From: Synergistaceae bacterium | GTDB lineage: Bacteria > Synergistota > Synergistia > Synergistales > Aminobacteriaceae | Length of the DNA stretch: 64,000 bases | Direction: 5' to 3' | Assembly: GCA_018436725.1 (NCBI GenBank) | Contig: JAHDKT010000026.1 | Coordinates: 64,001-128,000 of the forward strand | Shown: piece after piece, positions 21,121-31,734 of the stretch | Layout: every line of letters starts with the position of its first letter | Numbering within the stretch: position 1 is the stretch's first letter | Notes under the pieces: generated by a model | Told to the model about the DNA's origin: nothing | What the model saw: the letters and a program-made list of their open reading frames with translations, nothing else | The model's database searches: none | Program-made: the position numbers and the translations under genes

Positions 21121-21139
21121 GAAGGAGATATTCGTTCTC

Positions 21140-21185
21140 CACATAGATAACGGGAGAGTAGCTCTGCTCTCCCGTTATCTATGTG
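21140..21185. terminator. Shared 19-bp hairpin between nikE and the AraC gene
   Basis: 21140-21158 and 21167-21185 are perfect 19-base complements around an 8-base loop. It lies between convergent genes. The araC-type stop codon (21179-21181) is inside the right arm, so the last codons of that gene form part of the hairpin. The following T-richness is modest. Confidence 0.8.
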
Positions 21186-22072
21186 CTCTTTCCGATCGCT
21201 TTTCTGTATTGTGTAGGAGAGACCCCCATAATTCTCGTAAAATTTCTATAGAACGTCGAAATGTCGTCATATCCAACAAGCGTCGCAATTTCGTGAAGGG
21301 GGAGCGACTCGACCAACAAGAGGGACACCGCCTGCTCTATACGTTTTTTGTTGATATACCGCTTTAAAGGAACACCGGCGATTTGCGGAAATAGAAAGCA
21401 GAAGGTGGAGCGAGAGAGCATGAATTTTCTAGCAAGATCAATCAACGTCAATGGCTTCATATAGTTCATATCAATATGTTTTATACAGGCTCGTATTGAA
21501 TCGTGATACTCGTTGATTCCTCTGAGTTGTTTTTCTCCGTCGGGTTCCGCGAAGTAGTTTCTCGACAACAGCACCAGGATGGATGCGATAAGATGGCTTG
21601 CCATTGTGGCATCTCTTGCCGGATCCAAAGTACATTCACGCAATAAACAGTCCAGCAAAGACTCCAGAAGGACTTCTTCCGCACCATTCAAACGAATCTT
21701 CAATCGAATATCCAGCTTCTTACCCAAGAATGAATTAATCTGAAGCGCCATTAAAAATTTATAGGCGTCCGAGGAAAAAAACCCCGGATAAAAAACCTGT
21801 TCCTGAAAAGAAAGAGAAAAGAACTCCGTTCTTTCATTTCTGGAGACGATGCTATGAGTAAATACAGGAGGGATAATGAAGGCGTCGCCTTTTACCAGAG
21901 TAACCTCTTTTTCTCCCTGTTGATGCACTATATCGCCGCACGTTACGAAACAAATTTGGAAATAATCATGATGATGCGGAGATTCCGCAACGATGCTGCT
22001 GTTTAATTTGTAAATATGATAAAAGCGCGAAGAACTCTTAAAATAGTCAAGTGTAATTTCTCGCCCTTCCAT
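21179..22072 (-). CDS. AraC-family transcriptional regulator
   Basis: A 297-aa protein. N-terminal cupin-like sensing domain (HHHDYFQICFVTCGDIVHQQ, then GDAFIIPPVFTHSI) and C-terminal double helix-turn-helix (PLTLIDLARKFMLSRSTFCF, then LPLHEIATLVGYDDISTFYR and FTRIMGVSPTQYRK). The start at 22072 is chosen because AGGTGAGG lies just before it; a slightly longer frame exists. It lies downstream of, and on the same strand as, a seven-gene catabolic cluster, so it is the likely regulator, though a terminator-like hairpin separates them and it may have its own promoter. Confidence 0.85.
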   Translation of the reverse strand: MEGREITLDYFKSSSRFYHIYKLNSSIVAESPHHHDYFQICFVTCGDIVHQQGEKEVTLVKGDAFIIPPVFTHSIVSRNERTEFFSLSFQEQVFYPGFFSSDAYKFLMALQINSFLGKKLDIRLKIRLNGAEEVLLESLLDCLLRECTLDPARDATMASHLIASILVLLSRNYFAEPDGEKQLRGINEYHDSIRACIKHIDMNYMKPLTLIDLARKFMLSRSTFCFLFPQIAGVPLKRYINKKRIEQAVSLLLVESLPLHEIATLVGYDDISTFYRNFTRIMGVSPTQYRKAIGKST

Positions 22073-22434
22073 CGACCTCACCTCGACATCATACTTGTTC
22101 CGCTTCGATCCGGCGAAGTACGGCAATCAGAGATCGAAGCCGATTCCATACTAAAGCTACCCGCCCCTCGAAGTCAAGGTTCTTCATCGTCTCACTCGGT
22201 AGCCTGTAGAGCGCCGTCACGAACTCTACAAGCGAGAGAAATGCTGAAAAGAATTTGCAAACAAAGATAAATATTTTTACCCAGTTTCCTAATATCAAAA
22301 AAACGGCTCATTAACCAAGGAAGGAGCGCTCAAAAAACCGCTCCTTCCTTTTATCTTTCTTTACCATAGACTGCGCACATTCCCTAAGTACTCATGCAGT
22401 CTCACTATTACAATTTCGCAATTCTATTCTTCTT
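22073..22434. other. Region between fumarase beta and the AraC gene
   Basis: AT-rich, no gene. It contains the terminator-like hairpin at 22317-22350 and, to its left, space for a separate promoter of the AraC gene. Confidence 0.5.
22317..22350 (-). terminator. Terminator at the end of the catabolic cluster
   Basis: AAGGAAGGAGCG (22317-22328) pairs perfectly with 22339-22350. On the minus strand the hairpin loop is T-rich and a T-run follows about 13 bases later (near 22300); the plus side is also T-rich (TTATCTTTCTTT), so it could work in both directions. Confidence 0.65.
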
Positions 22435-23061
22435 CTAGTATAATTTTGTGTAACCAAAACAACTCGATATTCCTAACTCAGCAAGCGCCTTTTTTCTATT
22501 TTCGTCCACCGAACGATTGATTCCATCGAATAAATTGCGCCCATGGCAGTCGATATCGACGACAAACGGCCCCAACCTGTCGAGCCGTAAGTGCCATGCC
22601 GCCTCGATGCTTCCCAACTCATCGAAAAGATGAACTCCCTCGATACGAATCGCATCGACCCATAGATTCGGACTTACCGAGCGGGGAGAAACATGAACGC
22701 AACGTTTTTGTTTCATCATCTCGATCGTGCGGCTTCCCATAGTCGTTTTCCCGCATATCAATTTGAGCCCCCATTCCTCCACGGAACGCGCTCCCCATTT
22801 TTCAAAACGGATGCTCGACGTAGGCATAAAGGAGACCAACTTCCACTGACCGTCCTTAAGGATCACGATCGGGCCGGTATGAATCAGCATATTTCTGACG
22901 TTCGTCGAAAAAGGGAGTTCATGATCTTCGTCGAAGACATATCTATGAAGCCGGGAGCGACAGGTGAACGCGGCGCCGCTAAGGTAGACGCTGTCCCCGA
23001 TTTCAAGCTGTTCCACATCTTCGTCGCGAAGAGGCGCGCTCAATGTGTATTCCGCCACCAC
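22435..23061 (-). CDS. Class I fumarase/tartrate-dehydratase-type beta subunit
   Basis: A 208-aa protein matching the beta (C-terminal) domain of iron-sulfur hydro-lyases: LEIGDSVYLSGAAFTCRSRLH, LIHTGPI, GKTTMG and an aromatic segment around AAWHLRLDRLGPFVVDIDCHG. With the alpha subunit it adds or removes water on a C4 (or methyl-C4) dicarboxylate; fumarate, mesaconate or tartrate are all possible. It starts with GTG at 23061 (a second GTG follows), with GGGGAGGTAGGG overlapping the alpha-subunit stop. Last gene of the cluster. Confidence 0.85.
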   Translation of the reverse strand: MVAEYTLSAPLRDEDVEQLEIGDSVYLSGAAFTCRSRLHRYVFDEDHELPFSTNVRNMLIHTGPIVILKDGQWKLVSFMPTSSIRFEKWGARSVEEWGLKLICGKTTMGSRTIEMMKQKRCVHVSPRSVSPNLWVDAIRIEGVHLFDELGSIEAAWHLRLDRLGPFVVDIDCHGRNLFDGINRSVDENRKKALAELGISSCFGYTKLY

Positions 23062-23064
23062 GCC

Positions 23065-23982
23065 CTACCTCCCCTCGAACCAATCAGGCTGTTGCATCGG
23101 CTGGACCGAGGAATCTCCCAGTATGCGGCTGCTCGCACGACGTGCAATCATACAATTGCTGCTTGTCGCGACGACGACGCCGGCGATGTGAGTGTAAGCA
23201 TATTCGATGTTGACCGCGAAAACCGAAGTGCTCCCGCCCGCCCCCATGATTCCTACCCCGAGACTATTGAGGGCGACATACAAATCTTGTTCAATTTTCG
23301 CAATCATAGGCTCCGGATGCCGAGAACCTATCGTTCGCAGACATGCGGCTTCTTTTGCGAGATTCGCCGCGATATTCGCGGTTCCTCCGATACCGATACC
23401 CAGAATCGACGGCGGACATATGGCTCCGGCACGGGTCGAGTCGACGAAGCTGTCGATCACGAACTTTTCTATTCCGGAGATACCATCCGCAAACGCCACG
23501 ACACGATGCCTTGTGCCGCCGAAACACTCCGACCCCCCACCTTTTGCGACATAAGTAATTTCCAAATTCTCCCCGGGTACAAAACGATACGTGAAATCCG
23601 GGATGTTCATTCCCACGTTGTCGCCGGGATCGGCTCCGGTAAGAGGATGCTTCATCGTAGAGCGAAGGTACCCCTTGCGCGTCGCGTTGCGCACTGCGCT
23701 TCGCGCGGCATCCTCAAGACCCGTGAAACCTCCTTCGAACGCACACTCGTCTCCCACTTTGAAATAAAAGATGGGCCACCCCGTATCCGGACAGGCGGGA
23801 GTCGAGTTGATCGCCGAAAGTCGTATACTTTCGAGGGTTTTCTCCAGTCCCGTTTTCGCGACCGGAAAGACCTCTCGATCGATCGCCGCGGCGAACGCTT
23901 CGCAGACATCCTCCGATAACACTGTGGAGCCCCGGCAAATAGTTTCGAACAGAACCCTTTCATAGAGCGATCTCTTAATCAC
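23065..23982 (-). CDS. Class I fumarase/tartrate-dehydratase-type alpha subunit
   Basis: A 305-aa protein with three cysteines placed for a [4Fe-4S] cluster: PACPDTG, GGGSECFGG and AICPP. Other family blocks are DPGDNVGMNIPDF and GIGIGGTANIAANLAKEA. The cluster activates the substrate for hydration or dehydration and is oxygen-sensitive, which fits an anaerobe. Its stop is three bases before the beta subunit. Its position after a carrier and two amidohydrolases suggests it finishes a dicarboxylate-forming pathway rather than serving a general TCA role. Confidence 0.87.
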   Translation of the reverse strand: MIKRSLYERVLFETICRGSTVLSEDVCEAFAAAIDREVFPVAKTGLEKTLESIRLSAINSTPACPDTGWPIFYFKVGDECAFEGGFTGLEDAARSAVRNATRKGYLRSTMKHPLTGADPGDNVGMNIPDFTYRFVPGENLEITYVAKGGGSECFGGTRHRVVAFADGISGIEKFVIDSFVDSTRAGAICPPSILGIGIGGTANIAANLAKEAACLRTIGSRHPEPMIAKIEQDLYVALNSLGVGIMGAGGSTSVFAVNIEYAYTHIAGVVVATSSNCMIARRASSRILGDSSVQPMQQPDWFEGR

Positions 23983-24026
23983 GCCAACTCCCTCTTTCTA
24001 TTCCATCGCACGCCGCGACGCCGTTT

Positions 24027-25421
24027 TTAAAACGGGCCGATATTCATCACCGTTGCGATTGCAAGGAAAACGGCGCCGATGACTAGATTCAGAAGCAGCC
24101 ATTTCCAAATATACTGCAACCACTTACCGAAGGGAATGCCGCCAAAGGCCAGCCCCGCCATCAGAACGGAGGACATGGGAAGAATCTGATTCGTGAAACC
24201 GTCTCCGAACTGAAATGCCAGAACCACCGTCTGTTGCGTGAGTCCAAGCACATCGCCCACGGGCGAGAGGATCGGGATGACGGTAGCGGCCTGTCCGGAT
24301 CCCGAGGTAATGAAAGTATTGATAATGATATTGACAACATACATAACCTGGGCGGCCACGACTTTCGGCAAACCTGTCATTAAGCCGGCGAGACCATGAA
24401 CTATGGTATCTATGATGTTTCCGTTTGCCAGCACAACGCCGATTCCTGCGGAAATGCCCACGATAAGAGCGCCGAAGGTGATTTTCTCACACCCTTTGAC
24501 GAAAATTTTCGCGATTTCGCTCGGGCTAAAACCGTAGATAAAACCGCACGCCAAACCGGTAGCAAGGAAAACCGCCGGAATAGCATCGTTTGCGCTCCAA
24601 GACTCCACGGCGCCGTAGACAACGAACCCGAACCCGATAAGAAAAGCCAGCAGAACCATCCGCCTACGGGAAGTGAGTTCGAAGATCCGCACGTCTCCCG
24701 CTTGCGTGACGACTCCTTCGACGCCGTACACAACGCTTGCGGTCGGATCTCGCTGAAGGCGTTTCACATAGAGAGTGAGAAAGATGGAACCCGCCGCCCA
24801 AAGCACCGCGGTCACGATCAAACGAAATTCCCAGCCGGAAAACATGGGCAATCCTATGATCGCCTGTGCTATACCCGTAGTAGGAGCGACGAACGCGCCG
24901 CCGGTAAACCCCAGGTTCATTCCCATACCGACAAGAGAGACACCGACGAGAGCATCGGCGCCCAAGTTAAACGCAATCAATAATCCCAACGGGATAAAAG
25001 CCACGATGGCATTGCTGACATTGAGGGCTCCCAGTATTACGAAACAGAGCAACAGCAGCGGAATAACGATGAACGGTCGATTCCGGAAGGCATGAGCTAA
25101 ACGGCCGATGGAGGCTTCAAGCGCTCCCGTCTTATTGATGATCTCCACAGAGCCGGCGATGACAACGATCATAAAAATAATACCGGCTTGTTTAATGAGC
25201 CCCTGAGGGATAGCGAGCAGCATATTCCACAGATTAACGGGCGTATTCGGAACAGTATGAAACGAGTTCGGATCCACCACTTTCCTGCCGTCAACGACTA
25301 CCTTTTCATACATTCCGGCTGGGAGAATGTAACTCAATATACCGGCAATCAAAATCAGACACACAATAAGAACATAGGCATGGGGCATTTTAAAACCAAA
25401 CGTTTTCTTCTCGGTTTCCAT
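24027..25421 (-). CDS. YfcC-type (DcuC superfamily) membrane carrier
   Basis: A 464-aa integral membrane protein with about 12 helices; first helix AYVLIVCLILIAGILSYILP. Blocks such as SNAIVAFIPLGLLIAF, NLGFTGGAFVAPTTGIAQAI and TFITSGSGQAATVIPILSPV are typical of the YfcC/C4-dicarboxylate or basic-amino-acid carrier group. The substrate cannot be read from sequence; the neighbours suggest an N-acylated amino acid or dicarboxylate, in uptake or exchange. GAGGAGG stands before the ATG, and the gene starts three bases after the deacylase stop. Confidence 0.82.
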   Translation of the reverse strand: METEKKTFGFKMPHAYVLIVCLILIAGILSYILPAGMYEKVVVDGRKVVDPNSFHTVPNTPVNLWNMLLAIPQGLIKQAGIIFMIVVIAGSVEIINKTGALEASIGRLAHAFRNRPFIVIPLLLLCFVILGALNVSNAIVAFIPLGLLIAFNLGADALVGVSLVGMGMNLGFTGGAFVAPTTGIAQAIIGLPMFSGWEFRLIVTAVLWAAGSIFLTLYVKRLQRDPTASVVYGVEGVVTQAGDVRIFELTSRRRMVLLAFLIGFGFVVYGAVESWSANDAIPAVFLATGLACGFIYGFSPSEIAKIFVKGCEKITFGALIVGISAGIGVVLANGNIIDTIVHGLAGLMTGLPKVVAAQVMYVVNIIINTFITSGSGQAATVIPILSPVGDVLGLTQQTVVLAFQFGDGFTNQILPMSSVLMAGLAFGGIPFGKWLQYIWKWLLLNLVIGAVFLAIATVMNIGPF

Positions 25422-25424
25422 TTA

Positions 25425-27092
25425 TTACACCTCCTCATTTTTGTGTTTCGTTTTTTTCTCAACATCCCGATTCCCCACATCTCCCCGACGTATCACCCGC
25501 CCTCCGGCGACGCCGGTCACGCGACCATGCTCCACTGCGATTTTTCCATTGACAAGTACATACTCCATACCTTGAGGGGATAGCAAAGGTTCCAGATAAG
25601 TGGCCTTATCGCAAAAAAACCCCTCGTCATAGATTGCGATATCTGCCTTGAATCCTTTTTTTAAAAAACCTCTATCGTAAAAAGCGAAACGAGTGGCGGG
25701 AAAACCCGTCATTTTTTGGATAGCGGCCTCCAGAGTGAGCACGCCTCTATCCCGCACATATTCCCTGATAATACGAGGGAAAGTACCGCTGTTGCGCGGA
25801 TGAGCGCTCCAACCGAGTTTGACGGGTACCGAATCGGAACCGATCATGACCAAAGGCCATTGCACAAGAGTTTCCATATCCTCTTCCGACATCGCAAAAT
25901 CAACGGCCATGGCGGTAATATCGGAATCGATCATGAGCTTTATTCCCGCGTCAAGAGGAGATATATTCAGTTCTCTGCCGATTTCCAACAATGTCTTGCC
26001 CACATGCTGTTCGTTGTTTTTCGCGATGACAAGCATCGCTTTTCCACACCCCTCGTACATCGCCTCTTCCGTCGAGTAATTCCTATGCGCATAGATACCC
26101 TCGGTTATTTTTTCGTGAAGAGAAGCGTTTCGCAGACGTTCGATCATAGCGCGTTCATCGCCCTCGCGAACCCATGCAGGCAACAGAAGAGCCTCCAATC
26201 CCATGCAGCAGGCATTGTAGGGATAAAAATCGCACGTGATATCGACGCCTCTCCCACGAGCCTGCTCTACAAGCGCGATAAAATCGCTTATCAAGTTCTT
26301 TGAATTTTTCTGATGCATCACTTTGACATGATGAATTTGGCCTGGAATGCGATTTTTTTCCGCGACTTCGATGACGTCCCGAACAGCGTCGAGCCACCCG
26401 GAGGTCTCATTCCGCAGATGACAGGCGAAGGGGGCGTTGAATTCCGCCAATACCGAAGCCAACTCCACAATTTCATCGTTGTTCGAGAAAATGGCCGGCG
26501 CATAGATCAAACCAGCGCTCAGTCCTACGGCCCCTTCTTCCAACGCTTGGCGCAACATCTCCTTCATCGACGCCATGTCGTCTTCGGTCGGTTGCGCATC
26601 CGAGAGACCAAGAGCGTTGAAGCGAAGCGTCGTGTGCCCCACATAGGAGGCGAAGTTCGTGCCGAGCGGACATTTTTCCAATTCGGACAAATACTCGCCG
26701 AAGCTGTTCCAGTGCGCGTCTTCATGACGTTCTATGTTGCGCGAGGTCCTTCGTTTCAACCAGGCGGCTTTGTTCGCTTCGGCAATGGGGGCCATGGAGT
26801 TGCCGCAGCACCCGGTAATGACGGTCGTCACTCCCTGCAACAGCTTGTCTTCTACTAGGCGATTGACAAAACCTGCAAATTCAAAGGGGACAAGATCGTA
26901 ATGGGTATGCGTATCGATGAAACCGGGGCAAACAACTTTCCCCGCCGCGTCGATTTCGATATCGGCTCGGCACCCCTTAAACTTGCCGATCTCGGCGATG
27001 CTATCGCCGGTAATCGCAACATCCGCCATATACCAAGGCGTCCCTGAACCATCCACTACCCTGCCGTTTCTGATGATCGTGCCGAAATGCAT
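25425..27092 (-). CDS. N-acyl-D-amino-acid deacylase family amidohydrolase
   Basis: A 555-aa amidohydrolase. DTHTHYD (about residues 60-66) provides the HxH metal ligands, followed by GVTTVITGCCGNSMAP, CHLRNE, QIHHVKVMH and MIGSDSVPV with the conserved Asp. This is the D-aminoacylase arrangement; the enzyme removes acyl groups from D-amino acids or related N-acyl compounds. The ATG at 27092 has GAGG upstream and leaves a 10-base gap to the preceding gene. The protein is longer than typical D-aminoacylases (about 480-530 aa). The true substrate is unknown. Confidence 0.82.
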   Translation of the reverse strand: MHFGTIIRNGRVVDGSGTPWYMADVAITGDSIAEIGKFKGCRADIEIDAAGKVVCPGFIDTHTHYDLVPFEFAGFVNRLVEDKLLQGVTTVITGCCGNSMAPIAEANKAAWLKRRTSRNIERHEDAHWNSFGEYLSELEKCPLGTNFASYVGHTTLRFNALGLSDAQPTEDDMASMKEMLRQALEEGAVGLSAGLIYAPAIFSNNDEIVELASVLAEFNAPFACHLRNETSGWLDAVRDVIEVAEKNRIPGQIHHVKVMHQKNSKNLISDFIALVEQARGRGVDITCDFYPYNACCMGLEALLLPAWVREGDERAMIERLRNASLHEKITEGIYAHRNYSTEEAMYEGCGKAMLVIAKNNEQHVGKTLLEIGRELNISPLDAGIKLMIDSDITAMAVDFAMSEEDMETLVQWPLVMIGSDSVPVKLGWSAHPRNSGTFPRIIREYVRDRGVLTLEAAIQKMTGFPATRFAFYDRGFLKKGFKADIAIYDEGFFCDKATYLEPLLSPQGMEYVLVNGKIAVEHGRVTGVAGGRVIRRGDVGNRDVEKKTKHKNEEV

Positions 27093-27102
27093 CGTCGTTT
27101 CC

Positions 27103-28284
27103 TCACAACCCATTCATACTGTCCGCGACAAACTGAACAAAAACCCGAACGGCTATCGACAACGCGTCTTCGTCAATGTCCCAGTCGTTCCGGTGCGGCA
27201 TGCTCACAATTCCCTTCGCTTCGTTTCGACTGCCTATCCGGAAAAAAACCCCCGGTTTTCGAGTCTGATAGAAGGCAAAGTCCTCCGAACTCATCTTGGG
27301 CTTCTCCATGACGACGACGTTCTCTTTGCCTACCGTTTTTTCTGCGGACGCCATCAATCTCGATGTAATAAACGGATCGTTCACCACCGCCGGCAGGTAT
27401 TTTTCAACGGTAAGACACCCTTCCCCGCCCATCTCCCGAGATATCGAATGAACGATCTCATCCGCCCTCCGCATGATGAATTTCGCCACTTCCTCCGAAT
27501 GCGTCCTGACGGTTCCCTCCATCCCGCAGTGATCGGCAACCACATTTTTCGCGGTCCCCGCATGAAACGAGCCTATATTCATCACTCTGAGAGCGAAGGG
27601 ATCGATTTCACGATTCATCATGAGTTCCAACGCCGTATAAATACGCATTCCCATCGTGATCGCGTCGACTGCCGTATGCGGAAAAACCGCATGTCCGCTT
27701 TTTCCGCGCAATTCGATGCGGAAGTCGTGACAGGACGCCATCGCCGCTCCGGGGAGAAAGCCGACCGTCCCGACATCGTAGGCGTTGTCCATATGGCATC
27801 CGATGATGATGTCGATATCGTCCATCACCCCGTCCTCGACCATCGACTTCGCCCCGCTGGCAATCCCCTCTTCGCTGGGCTGGAAGAGCAACACGACGCG
27901 ACAATTCAGATCTTCCTTTATCCGGTCCAGCAGTTTTGCAACGCCGAGCAAAATGGCGGTATGCGCGTCATGTCCGCAGGCATGCATTTTTCCGTCGTAT
28001 CTGGACTTGTAGTAGGATGTTTCACCGGCTTCTTGTACGGGAAGCGCATCCATATCGGCCCGGATGCCGATAGTAAAACCTCTTTTGTGCCCGTTGATGG
28101 TAGCTACGACGCTGCTTCGACCGTATTTTTCCGTGTAGGGAATCCCCATATCGCGAAGTTGCGAGGTGACCAGCTCGACTGTTCTCGGCAGATCGAATCC
28201 CGTCTCCGGGTACATATGAAGCGTTCGCCGCGTCTTTCGGAGCCACTCTTCGTCTATATTTTCGAACAGCGTTTGAAGATCCAT
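27103..28284 (-). CDS. M20D-family amidohydrolase (hippurate hydrolase-like)
   Basis: A 393-aa zinc-dependent amidohydrolase. MHACGHDAHTAILLG, FQPSEEG, a GCHMDN block and SSEDFAFY are metal-ligand and catalytic blocks of the M20D group (hippuricase, IAA-amino acid hydrolase, N-acetyl-diaminopimelate deacetylase). The dimerisation lid (ELRGKSGHAVFPHTAVDAI) is intact. It hydrolyses an N-acyl amino acid or small dipeptide. A paralogous chemistry is encoded by the next gene, so two amide bonds, or both stereoisomers, may be handled. Confidence 0.85.
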   Translation of the reverse strand: MDLQTLFENIDEEWLRKTRRTLHMYPETGFDLPRTVELVTSQLRDMGIPYTEKYGRSSVVATINGHKRGFTIGIRADMDALPVQEAGETSYYKSRYDGKMHACGHDAHTAILLGVAKLLDRIKEDLNCRVVLLFQPSEEGIASGAKSMVEDGVMDDIDIIIGCHMDNAYDVGTVGFLPGAAMASCHDFRIELRGKSGHAVFPHTAVDAITMGMRIYTALELMMNREIDPFALRVMNIGSFHAGTAKNVVADHCGMEGTVRTHSEEVAKFIMRRADEIVHSISREMGGEGCLTVEKYLPAVVNDPFITSRLMASAEKTVGKENVVVMEKPKMSSEDFAFYQTRKPGVFFRIGSRNEAKGIVSMPHRNDWDIDEDALSIAVRVFVQFVADSMNGL

Positions 28285-28313
28285 TTTTCTTCCTCCTGTC
28301 GATCATTCTTTCG

Positions 28314-28634
28314 TTAGAGCAAATCCACTTCCAGATCCATCAGAGGAGCATGTTGTTGCGCCCCGTAGACATCTCTGTCTTCGAAGTTCCCGGAACAAAC
28401 GGGCCTCTTTATGGTAGCTTTGATAGCATGCGCGGGCGCATAGCTCACAACGCAGAGCACATTCTCCGGTTGAATGCAATAGAGCCTCGCAATCAGCTCC
28501 GCATCGATACGGCCGGACGCGACGATCCGTTCAAACATCTCTCGCTCTTTGAATATGATATCCAGCGTCAGTTCATAGGGGCCCGCGTTTTTGGACCGAA
28601 TCACTTCGGCCACATCAAGCAACCGTACCTTCAT
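28314..28634 (-). CDS. DUF4387 protein, partner of the AtuA-like protein
   Basis: A 106-aa protein with the DUF4387 signature: LLDVAEVIRSKNAGPYELTLDIIF, ARLYCI and PVCSGNFEDRDVYGAQQHAPL. DUF4387 proteins are nearly always encoded next to AtuA-like (DUF1446) proteins and probably form a complex with them. The start overlaps the AtuA-like stop by four bases. Biochemical role unknown. Confidence 0.85.
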   Translation of the reverse strand: MKVRLLDVAEVIRSKNAGPYELTLDIIFKEREMFERIVASGRIDAELIARLYCIQPENVLCVVSYAPAHAIKATIKRPVCSGNFEDRDVYGAQQHAPLMDLEVDLL

Positions 28635-30022
28635 CGCACTTGCCCCCCGACTATGTTGTAGTACGTTACCGGGAAGAGTTCCGACGTTTCGTCGACCTCC
28701 AACAAATGGTAGATCGAGAAGACGTAGACTTCACCCATAGCTACATCCGACGGAGAATATGGAAAGGCCAGATTGCCCGCCGTCGCCACACGCCCGGGGT
28801 ATCCGGCATGAAGCAGAATCGAGCGAGCCACTGAACAGATGGTATTCGCTTCTTCCTGCTTCGAAGCGACAGCATCGATCACAATACAAATCTCATGCCC
28901 CTCGGTATGTTGACACCGCTCAAGATCTCCCATCACGCCGTTTTTTCCGTAGACGATAAAGTCCAACGTGTACGGAAAAAGAGAACGTCTGAAATTTTCG
29001 GCCACCTGCCGCTTAACGTCTTCAAGTATGCTTTCGACTTGAGAGATAAAGATTCTGTCGCGATTCCCGGCGATGGATATGGTTCGATACCCTGCAAAAC
29101 GGGTTCCCTCCAATTTCACAGTTTTTTTGCCGGAATCTACGAAGCTACTGCCGGCGACCTTGACCCTTCTCTCGCTTTCCTGACAAAAAGATGTTTCCGA
29201 CAAATTCAGCGCGCCGCCCGGCCCCGGCAAAAAACAAGGGTTTGACTTCTCATACAACGTATGCGCCGCCACGGAAGTCACAGTACATCGTCGCAAGGGA
29301 TTCAGCGGCTCCACACTGAATGAATCGTCTCGCAAATACCCCATGATGCAGTCGGAGCCGCTCCCGGGGACGGAAGCGATACACCCGCACTCCAGTATTT
29401 TTCCCAAGTGGATCGCCAGCGCTTTGGAGTATCCCAAACGTATCGCCGGAGCTGCGAAGACGGCCGGATCATAGCATCTTCCGCATAAAACGATCTGAGC
29501 GCCGCCATCGAGCGCATCGATGATCGGTTCGACTCCCATCTGCCCTACGATATGCGCGCTGTTGCGAATATCCGCCTCCACAATCTCGGGAGCGGGAAGC
29601 AATGAAGAAATTTTGCCGTTCTTGAACTCGGAAACTACGAATTCTCTCTCCAGTTCCGCGGAGATCGTGGCAAATGAAAAGGAAAGACCGAACTCGTTCG
29701 CTATCTCGAAAACAATCTTCTTGTCTCTTTCAAGATGAGACAACGCTCCGGAACCACCCGCAGAACCGATGACAAGGGGAATATCGCGTTCGCATGCGGC
29801 TCTCATAAGCAACGTCAGGTCACGTTTTACGGCATTTTCCGTGGTAAACGATTTCCCGCTTCCCAAATAATAGGGGCCCGGATCCGTGGAGCCTGCGTCG
29901 ACGGCAATCCAGTCGGGATTTTTCGCAAGCCCGATGAGGAAAGATTCTTCCGGGAAACCGTACCCAAGAATTCCTGTCGGCGACAACACTTTCACTTCTT
30001 TCAAGCAGTCCACCTTCTTCAA
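28631..30022 (-). CDS. AtuA-like (DUF1446) protein
   Basis: A 463-aa protein of the acyclic terpene utilisation AtuA family: GFPEESFLIGLAKNPDWIAV, DAGSTDPGPYYLG, IGSAGGSGA and ALDGGAQIVLCGRCYDPAVF. In terpene-degrading Pseudomonas AtuA lies in the citronellate locus, but in anaerobes the family occurs with DUF4387 and varied catabolic genes, so the terpene name probably does not describe its role here. It is the first gene of the seven-gene cluster, and the promoter must lie within about 150 bases upstream, next to decayed insertion sequences. Confidence 0.82.
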   Translation of the reverse strand: MKKVDCLKEVKVLSPTGILGYGFPEESFLIGLAKNPDWIAVDAGSTDPGPYYLGSGKSFTTENAVKRDLTLLMRAACERDIPLVIGSAGGSGALSHLERDKKIVFEIANEFGLSFSFATISAELEREFVVSEFKNGKISSLLPAPEIVEADIRNSAHIVGQMGVEPIIDALDGGAQIVLCGRCYDPAVFAAPAIRLGYSKALAIHLGKILECGCIASVPGSGSDCIMGYLRDDSFSVEPLNPLRRCTVTSVAAHTLYEKSNPCFLPGPGGALNLSETSFCQESERRVKVAGSSFVDSGKKTVKLEGTRFAGYRTISIAGNRDRIFISQVESILEDVKRQVAENFRRSLFPYTLDFIVYGKNGVMGDLERCQHTEGHEICIVIDAVASKQEEANTICSVARSILLHAGYPGRVATAGNLAFPYSPSDVAMGEVYVFSIYHLLEVDETSELFPVTYYNIVGGQVR

Positions 30023-30185
30023 CGAACAGTATTGAGAAAAAGCTTCTCGAAGATACTAAAGCAACTCTCCCTGAAAATGAATTGCAAAACGTCCAAAAAA
30101 ATATGCAATACATACATTACACGCACAACTCATAACACCGTATGAAAAAACAATACCGTGTACATGGGATGAATTTAAGGAATCT
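30023..30185. other. Upstream region of the catabolic cluster
   Basis: An AT-rich stretch that must hold the minus-strand promoter of the cluster. ATTGCA and TGCAAT (30083-30109) form a short imperfect inverted pair that could be an activator site. No clear -35/-10 pair could be fixed by eye. Confidence 0.35.
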
Positions 30186-30335
30186 ATGAGCCACTTCGTA
30201 CTCATCGACCTCGGAAACGAATTCGCCGCCGATGAAACCGTCATCTGCGAATTTCTTCGCCTTCTCGAAGCGCGCTGGGCATGATGAAATACCTTTTCGA
30301 GTGGGAAGAGCGGGATCGATTCCGAGGAGTGTTCC
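30186..30335 (+). pseudogene. IS5-type transposase remnant
   Basis: The frame from 30186 reads HFVLIDLGNEFAADETVICE, then FLRLLEARWA, and stops at 30282-30284. FxGIDLGxxxxPDETTIxxFRHLLE is the N-terminal motif of IS5-group transposases. Similar coding sense continues weakly in the next frame. No inverted repeats or DDE residues remain. Confidence 0.5.
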
Positions 30336-30350
30336 ATACGGAAATACAAG

Positions 30351-30805
30351 ACTGTGGAAAAAGGACACGGGCGGATAAATCTACTCCGTCCCCGCACTCT
30401 GGATTATCGATGAATTGAATGAGTGGCCGGAGTTGAAGAGCGTCACGATGGTTGTATCGATGCGCCAAGGTTAGCGGGCGAGAGTCTAGCGAAGAACGGC
30501 CCTATTATCCGAGCACTTTGAACATGGATGCGGAAAAGATCGGTATGGAGAGCCGCTCCCGTTGGGAATGAGAAATAGAGAACAGTCTTTAGAGGGTGTT
30601 CGACGTATATTCCGAGAGGGTGCGTCGCATAACCACAAGGATCACAGAGCGAAGAATACCTGTGACCGAAGCTGTTTAAGACTGAATATATCGACTATTC
30701 ATTATATGGCGACCAATCTCCTGAAAAAGGAACAATCCTCGAAGAGGAGCTTCCAAAACAAACGTTTGAAATTTTCGTGGAACGCCAACTATATTCTACA
30801 GCTTT
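30351..30805 (+). pseudogene. ISAs1-type transposase remnant, several frameshifts
   Basis: Successive frames give TVEKGHGRIN (30351 on), WIIDELNEWPELKSVTMVVS, SGRESSEERPYYPSTLNMDAEKIG, FREGASHNHKDHRAKNTCD and NLLKKEQSSKRSFQNKRLKF. In that order these are the blocks of the second half of ISAs1-family transposases, including the ExVxKGHGRIExR and NLLKQEKxxKRGxxxKRLKA signatures. Frame changes and internal stops are numerous. It lies directly after the IS5-type remnant. Confidence 0.65.
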
Positions 30806-30858
30806 TCTCTTTAGCGCGATGCGTTTGCGCTGGTCTGGCTTGCCCCCCCCGCCGTTCC

Positions 30859-31734
30859 CTATCGTTTCCCCCCGAACGCCCGCAACAGCAGGTACGCGCA
30901 GACCACCGTGACCGCCGCCTGGCTCGGAATCAGAAAGATCACGGGGACGACGTTCTGCCCGAGGAAGGCCATGGCGAGCACCTTGGCCGTGAGCGCCGTC
31001 ATCAGGAACGAGAGGAAGACGAGATAGACCGCCCCGAGCAGCAGGCCGAACGGAACACGCCTGATGAGCTGCACCCCCGCCACCAGCGAAAGCGGCAGCA
31101 GAAAGGCCAGGTCGAACCCCTGTACGATCAGGGTGGTGTAGTGCTCCACGGCCTTCGGAATCACCGATCCGTCGAGAAGCGGCGGGACGATCACGCCGAG
31201 CCAGAGCGCGATGACTGAGCAGGAGGAGAACAGGAGGAAAACGCCGCTCACCTTGTGGATTTTCTCCCCAGCGTACGCCGTGCGTACCTCGTCGAAGGAG
31301 AGGTCGGCGAGCGCGAGTCCGAAGGCGAAGGCGCTCGTTCCGGCGAGCAGGACGTAGACCGGGAAAAGCGCGCTGTACGTTCCCATGGCGAGGTAAAACG
31401 TGTAGGTCACCAGAAAGTAGAGCAGCGTTCCGGCGAGAAAGAGCTTGCGTCCCGCCGAACCGTCGCCCGCCCTCAGGTACGCCCGAAGAAGCAGCGGAAC
31501 GGCGATGAAGAACGTCACGACGTCCTGGGCGATCCCCTGAGGAGCGACGTCCTCCGACATGTGTTGGTACACGCCGCGCCCGAAAATCCGCACGGTCTCG
31601 CCGCGGACCGAAACGTGCTCCCACGGCCCCGGGCCGCCCGAACCGAACATGCCTACCCCCGCCGCAACCGCGGCGAACACGGCGATCACGAGGACGAGAC
31701 ACCCCGTCGTTCTCCGAAATGAAATCCTTCGCAT
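30859..31734 (-). CDS. Conserved membrane protein of unknown function
   Basis: A 291-aa protein. One N-terminal helix (TGCLVLVIAVFAAVAAGVGM) is followed by a soluble segment with VRIFGRGVYQHMSEDVAPQG, then about six hydrophobic helices. I do not recognise a named domain. The IFGRGxYxxxS...AxxIAQDxVTF block looks like a conserved feature of an uncharacterised family of integral membrane proteins. It stands alone, next to IS debris on its 3' side. GGGAG lies ten bases before the ATG. Confidence 0.7.
   Translation of the reverse strand: MRRISFRRTTGCLVLVIAVFAAVAAGVGMFGSGGPGPWEHVSVRGETVRIFGRGVYQHMSEDVAPQGIAQDVVTFFIAVPLLLRAYLRAGDGSAGRKLFLAGTLLYFLVTYTFYLAMGTYSALFPVYVLLAGTSAFAFGLALADLSFDEVRTAYAGEKIHKVSGVFLLFSSCSVIALWLGVIVPPLLDGSVIPKAVEHYTTLIVQGFDLAFLLPLSLVAGVQLIRRVPFGLLLGAVYLVFLSFLMTALTAKVLAMAFLGQNVVPVIFLIPSQAAVTVVCAYLLLRAFGGKR

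Follow-up and report, generated by a model that had tools for sequence, protein, structure and literature searches.

A Synergistaceae operon combines a probable citramalate lyase with a variant class I Fe-S hydratase and putative amide hydrolases

What compound is degraded by an operon in which AtuA-like and DUF4387 proteins are encoded beside two amidohydrolases, a membrane carrier and a two-subunit Fe-S hydratase? We addressed this question for a gut-type Synergistaceae bacterium (GCA_018436725.1), using a window of 64,000 nucleotides, the whole stretch of DNA analysed (contig JAHDKT010000026.1, positions 64,001 to 128,000). In agreement with a preliminary description of the locus, seven genes of these families lie tightly packed on one strand, and all seven ORFs are intact, on the minus strand and in operonic order (Table 1). 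Transcription proceeds from cmlA through cmlB, the M20D gene, the D-aminoacylase-type gene, the YfcC/DcuC carrier and hydratase alpha to hydratase beta, with gaps of -4, 29, -11, 3, 44 and 3 nt, such that cmlA and cmlB overlap by 4 nt. Since the ORFs are intact and operonic, the family matches strong and the hydratase-lyase core present in 23 other genomes, the gene set appears to be more than a chance assembly. The AraC-type regulator that had been described as part of the cluster is indeed present, but it forms a separate unit behind a strong hairpin; its homologues (38-45% identity) stand divergently beside many of the relative clusters. The cmlA start is likely better placed at the TTG at 30004, which has GAAGGTGG just upstream and agrees with the N-termini of homologues; for the D-aminoacylase-type gene, Met8 may be the true start. 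Upstream of cmlA, positions 30023-30860 comprise about 840 low-GC bases with short overlapping ORFs only, which may be a leader or degraded island-edge DNA.

Table 1. Features of the operon and its surroundings, in window coordinates.
Feature	Position	Strand	Evidence
cmlA (AtuA family, PF07287), probable citramalate lyase subunit A	28631..30022	-	9erq_A E 1.2e-143; Foldseek 9evf E 2.7e-59; 115/116 invariant columns
cmlB (DUF4387), probable citramalate lyase subunit B	28314..28634	-	PF14330 E 3e-38; 9erq_B E 2.5e-30
M20D amidohydrolase, cluster-specific subfamily	27103..28284	-	Pfam M20; closest relatives beside CmlB; shared motifs
D-aminoacylase-type amidohydrolase	25425..27113	-	1m7j D-aminoacylase E 2e-74; metal motifs
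DcuC/YfcC-family membrane carrier	24027..25421	-	PF03606 E 4e-65; NF008611 236 bits
Class I Fe-S hydratase alpha, variant subclass (CPDTG)	23065..23982	-	PF05681 E 1e-66; alignment and tree
Class I Fe-S hydratase beta, variant (TCRSRLH, PTSSIRFE, GKTTMG)	22435..23061	-	PF05683 E 2e-18; Foldseek 7xky_B E 1e-17
Terminator-like hairpin 3' of hydratase genes	22316..22350 (about)	-	fold of region -26.7 kcal/mol
AraC-type regulator, own transcription unit	21179..22126	-	domain match; 308 nt downstream of operon
Low-GC island: operon and AraC	21130..30860 (approximate limits)	.	GC 43-55% vs ~65% left, 62% right

The key to the locus is the AtuA-like/DUF4387 pair. Among solved structures, the sole significant relative of the AtuA-like protein is 9erq_A, deposited as 'Citramalate lyase, subunit A (cmlA)' and aligned over residues 9-445, and that of the DUF4387 protein is 9erq_B (cmlB). 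An AlphaFold model of the window CmlA (mean pLDDT 84) matched 9evf, 'Citramalate lyase - ADP - pyruvate complex' (TM 0.84), and Foldseek returned no other match at E < 0.001. Of the 116 alignment columns that do not vary among 45 lyases with a link to glutamate mutase/methylaspartase, all except one are retained in the window CmlA, and 88 and 54 in two Synergistota paralogue groups. In the CmlA tree, the window protein and 16 gut-Clostridia proteins form a clade (SH-aLRT 100) nested among lyases linked to methylaspartate ammonia-lyase (MAL) or glutamate mutase. The E. coli O157:H7 orthologues ECs_0760 and ECs_0759 (53% and 52% identity to the window pair) sit in a methylaspartate cluster with glutamate mutase, methylaspartase and FumD, which in EHEC is an assayed mesaconase; a 2015 paper noted the DUF1446 gene of that cluster, its function then being unknown (PMC4682846). 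The window pair resembles known CmlAB (PDB 9erq, 9evf; EHEC ECs_0760/0759) in both subunits, their order and overlap and 51-53% subunit A identity, and differs in having no adjoining methylaspartase or glutamate mutase and in falling into its own clade with gut Clostridia. These alignments and structural models support well, short of proof, a reading in which the window CmlAB would cleave citramalate to acetate and pyruvate.

The identity of this central pair is already known, since the structure depositors named it citramalate lyase. An earlier reading, which invoked an AtuA/DUF4387 conversion and knew of no described pathway with this gene set, is thus outdated, the pair being CmlA/CmlB orthologues, and the proposed order of steps has to be reversed, as citramalate lyase acts after the hydratase and not before it. 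Literature searches ('citramalate lyase', '9ERQ') yielded no open paper describing CmlAB or its assay, and none was found on DUF4387. We rejected the acyclic terpene utilisation (Atu) pathway, as geranyl-CoA carboxylase and other Atu genes are absent among the eight island genes; only the Pfam family name PF07287 is held in common, and it is misleading here. The RefSeq annotation of E. coli O157:H7 Sakai (NC_002695, 846933-848617) calls the CmlA orthologue a 3-methylaspartate ammonia-lyase and the CmlB orthologue an acyl-CoA synthetase; both names look wrong.

Both hydratase subunits carry class I fumarase family domains and keep the three cluster cysteines, and the predicted model of the beta subunit matches fumarase beta subunits. 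Fold, two-subunit organization and cysteines are those of two-subunit class I fumarases, mesaconases and L-tartrate dehydratases (PDB 7xky), from which the enzyme is set apart by four signature motifs that are altered throughout its subclass. Where the comparison set, EHEC FumD and MAL-linked hydratases, has the signature CQDTG, T[AG]RDxAH, GPTTxxRMD and GKG, the window hydratase has CPDTG, TCRSRLH, MPTSSIRFE and GKTTMG. These changes are class-wide, affect both subunits and accompany a deep tree split from the MAL-linked hydratases. Residues that are catalytic in the Leishmania enzyme (H334, R421, T467, R471 and the GKG lysine) appear kept by motif, and the PDB holds variants at H334, R421, T467 and R471. 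Because the active-site motifs are unlike those of assayed mesaconases, the substrate may not be mesaconate.

The genomic partnership of this hydratase is consistent. It adjoins CmlAB in 24 of 24 loci, mostly from rumen or gut Clostridia, in a set biased towards hydratase-lyase pairing by the 16 loci that were found through CmlA; locus neighbourhoods were determined with tblastn. An independent search with the hydratase, covering 394 genomes from the taxonomic order of one relative, returned eight matches at E < 1e-140 and none from 1e-140 to 1e-60, and all eight (seven new loci and one already known) have CmlAB adjacent. In seven of them the lyase is of a second CmlAB type, 40-44% identical to that of the window, of which the tree placed six in one clade; the PGSGSD motif is missing from this clade. 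By alignment and tree, the hydratase is a new, deep and motif-altered subclass, partnered with CmlAB in every locus seen. A further class I hydratase pair with non-canonical motifs (CADTG, TSRSGFYR; alpha subunit 38% identical) lies beside glutamate mutase S, L and E in genome G154 (locus L162, G154:C93:1-12000).

Within Synergistota, the operon stands out as probably foreign. Across 188 genomes of the phylum, the variant hydratase subclass was found only in the window's own, the next best match being 39% identical. The right flank of the low-GC island is found in a congener (G043) at 89-90% identity and continues there into unrelated high-GC genes, with the cluster absent; the left flank, in the single congener having it, ends at a contig end, such that the empty site is seen on the right flank only. 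The simplest reading is that the operon was horizontally acquired, in a transfer that involved gut Clostridia and may have run in either direction.

The M20D protein scores 331 bits against TIGR01891 (cut-off 154) and has the HACGHDAH/EEG metal motifs. It is like the M20D N-acyl amino acid hydrolases (YxeP, ILL2, aminobenzoyl-glutamate hydrolase) in fold family and metal motifs, and unlike them in its cluster-specific motif GxRNxxKG...PHxND, part of a set (SSEDF...GxRNxxKG...PHxND) shared by the cluster M20Ds. Over full length it is 43-51% identical to M20Ds beside CmlB in gut Clostridia and at most 38% identical to paralogues in its own genome (18 matches including itself), and in eight genomes its best relatives are the copies beside CmlB. 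Of the 24 variant-hydratase loci, 11 carry this subfamily, against none of 51 glutamate-type loci (Fisher p 5e-7, a value that ignores shared ancestry), and it accompanies the module repeatedly, in two Cml clades. Judged by motifs and neighbourhoods, a specific M20D hydrolase subfamily, new here, is tied to variant-hydratase loci. The pathway first proposed had joined the hydrolases and the hydratase; among homologous clusters none was found without the hydratase, which favours it, and 13 of 24 are without M20D, which counts against it and makes the hydrolases accessory.

The second hydrolase keeps the metal motifs HTHYD, GCCGNS, HLRNE, HHVKV and GSDSVP and shares these and the overall length of the amidohydrolase domain with D-aminoacylase and N-acyl-D-glutamate deacylase (1m7j, 3gip), from which it differs in being longer (562 aa) and in scoring 196 bits against NF006560, under the curated subfamily cut-off of 340. 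The carrier falls within the DcuC Pfam family and below the 500-bit cut-off of the YfcC equivalog. Neither the D-aminoacylase-type nor the YfcC-like gene occurs in any of the other 23 variant-hydratase loci. In several relatives a CapA/PGA_cap-family gene follows M20D (L064:11371-12663, with homologues in L065, L071, L095, L110 and L223), and its only NCBIfam relative is the MslH lasso-peptide epimerase, far under the cut-off of that model. Speculatively, the conjugate may exist in an L and a D form, with M20D and an epimerase dealing with these in relatives and M20D and a D-acylase in the window.

With the Fe-S pair being a class I hydratase, the lower pathway likely leads from a C5 unsaturated diacid through citramalate to acetate and pyruvate. 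Our best explanation, which we consider about evenly balanced, is that the acquired operon serves to ferment a branched, unsaturated C5 dicarboxylate set free from an amide or N-acyl conjugate, mesaconate being the most likely acid. The DcuC/YfcC-type carrier would import the conjugate or the acid; M20D would cut the amide bond, with the D-aminoacylase-type enzyme perhaps serving the other stereoisomer; the variant hydratase, whose family is clear, would add water to give citramalate; and CmlAB, by its close orthology to the solved and depositor-named lyase, would split this into acetate and pyruvate, the latter yielding energy by the usual anaerobic route. AraC would regulate the operon. In effect, the operon would be the lower half of the methylaspartate pathway, separated from the glutamate mutase and methylaspartase steps and supplied with a different front end. 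The earlier proposal of hydrolytic steps followed by hydration of an unsaturated dicarboxylate into central metabolism fits this evidence, except that the lower half was already known. The gene families, the operon, the lyase orthology and the partner specificity are shown here. Counting against the best explanation are the D-aminoacylase-type and YfcC-like genes, seen in no other cluster, and the roughly half of relatives without M20D; moreover, we know of no natural C5-diacid amide that is an abundant substrate.

Glutamate is the obvious alternative source of the C5 acid, given the likeness to the methylaspartate pathway of the EHEC cluster with FumD (PMC4682846), which has a class I hydratase and citramalate lyase as its lower half; the window genome differs in having no upper half, hydrolases and a DcuC-type carrier in its place, and another hydratase subclass. 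The hydrolases could release glutamate from N-acyl-L/D-glutamate into an ordinary methylaspartate pathway ending in the window hydratase and lyase, as N-acyl-D-glutamate deacylase is among the relatives of the D-aminoacylase and aminobenzoyl-glutamate hydrolase among those of M20D, and GlmE and MAL occur together in three relatives (among 16, GlmE in four and MAL in three). We judge this very improbable. The 4.78-Mb genome, 99.45% complete, has no match to glutamate mutase E (GlmE, PF06368) and no convincing MAL (PF07476; best 28 bits over a partial domain, with a model that also gives matches in 11 of 14 control genomes); with both enzymes missing, we rejected glutamate as the C5 source in this genome. 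Use of the cluster in trans for glutamate by the three MAL-carrying relatives is weakened by citrate/citramalate-lyase genes around the glutamate cluster in two of them (CitC in both, CitXG in one, CitF in the other). These lyase genes, the single DUF4387 in each of the three and the lack of GlmE and of a convincing MAL in the window's own genome imply that the module probably has its own C5-acid source. A protein of about 300 aa without Pfam or NCBIfam match (L039:1604-2545, minus strand) is also encoded, as homologues, by most MAL/CmlAB loci and next to CitC in L159 and L160; the family recurs in glutamate-fermentation clusters of both lyase types.

The choice of acid is less clear-cut, as pathway context favours mesaconate and the altered hydratase favours itaconate or citraconate. 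It is possible, though on balance unlikely, that itaconate, citraconate or a related 2-alkylfumarate is the substrate of the variant hydratase and that CmlAB then splits the (2-alkyl)malate so formed, making the operon a CoA-free route for that acid. The class-wide motif changes in both subunits, the deep split from MAL-linked hydratases and the association with a second CmlAB clade lacking PGSGSD point this way, as does a report that healthy human faeces are rich in itaconate, an acid for which no fermenter is known (PMC12290011); the near-complete conservation of the window CmlA speaks against it, and the non-canonical G154 hydratase, also adjoining glutamate mutase genes, points to mesaconate. 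Narrower and more doubtful still is the version in which variant hydratase and CmlAB perform CoA-free fermentation of itaconate (or citraconate) in gut bacteria, from itaconate via citramalate to acetate and pyruvate, with the dedicated M20D opening acid conjugates. Alternatively, the lyase-hydratase half may ferment mesaconate or citramalate that the carrier imports in free form, the two hydrolases being independent N-acyl amino acid scavengers that share the operon. The relatives without hydrolases and the D-aminoacylase-type gene unique to the window agree with such a division, which we nevertheless regard as improbable, somewhat less so than the itaconate fermentation just described, as a particular M20D subfamily with shared specific motifs is repeatedly found with the module, in two Cml clades.

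Other AtuA/DUF4387 loci place the pair in a wider setting. The commoner Synergistota cluster (most of L040-L059, and L006 of the same genome) comprises two AtuA-like genes, DUF4387, two MmgE/PrpD genes and a TRAP transporter, suggesting a lyase that works with a different (de)hydratase/isomerase family. Three further loci (L036, L037 and L038) have a CmlAB-like pair (43-45% identity) without PGSGSD, beside a GntR regulator, a TctA-type tricarboxylate transporter, aconitase and NADP isocitrate dehydrogenase (annotated in L036); this pair may be a lyase acting on a tricarboxylate, for example citrate. Together, these arrangements suggest that the AtuA/DUF4387 family consists of lyases paired with different (de)hydratase families, namely class I fumarase, aconitase or MmgE/PrpD, a view that provides testable candidate functions for many clusters that are currently annotated as 'acyclic terpene utilization'.

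The most likely role of AtuA/DUF4387 in this operon is settled, namely that of a citramalate lyase working outside glutamate fermentation, in company with hydrolases and a hydratase subclass of its own. What is new is the combination, a citramalate lyase with a variant hydratase and amide hydrolases in a genome without GlmE or methylaspartase. If the hydratase takes itaconate, the operon would represent a fermentative route, not yet known, for an acid reported to be abundant in the gut (PMC12290011).
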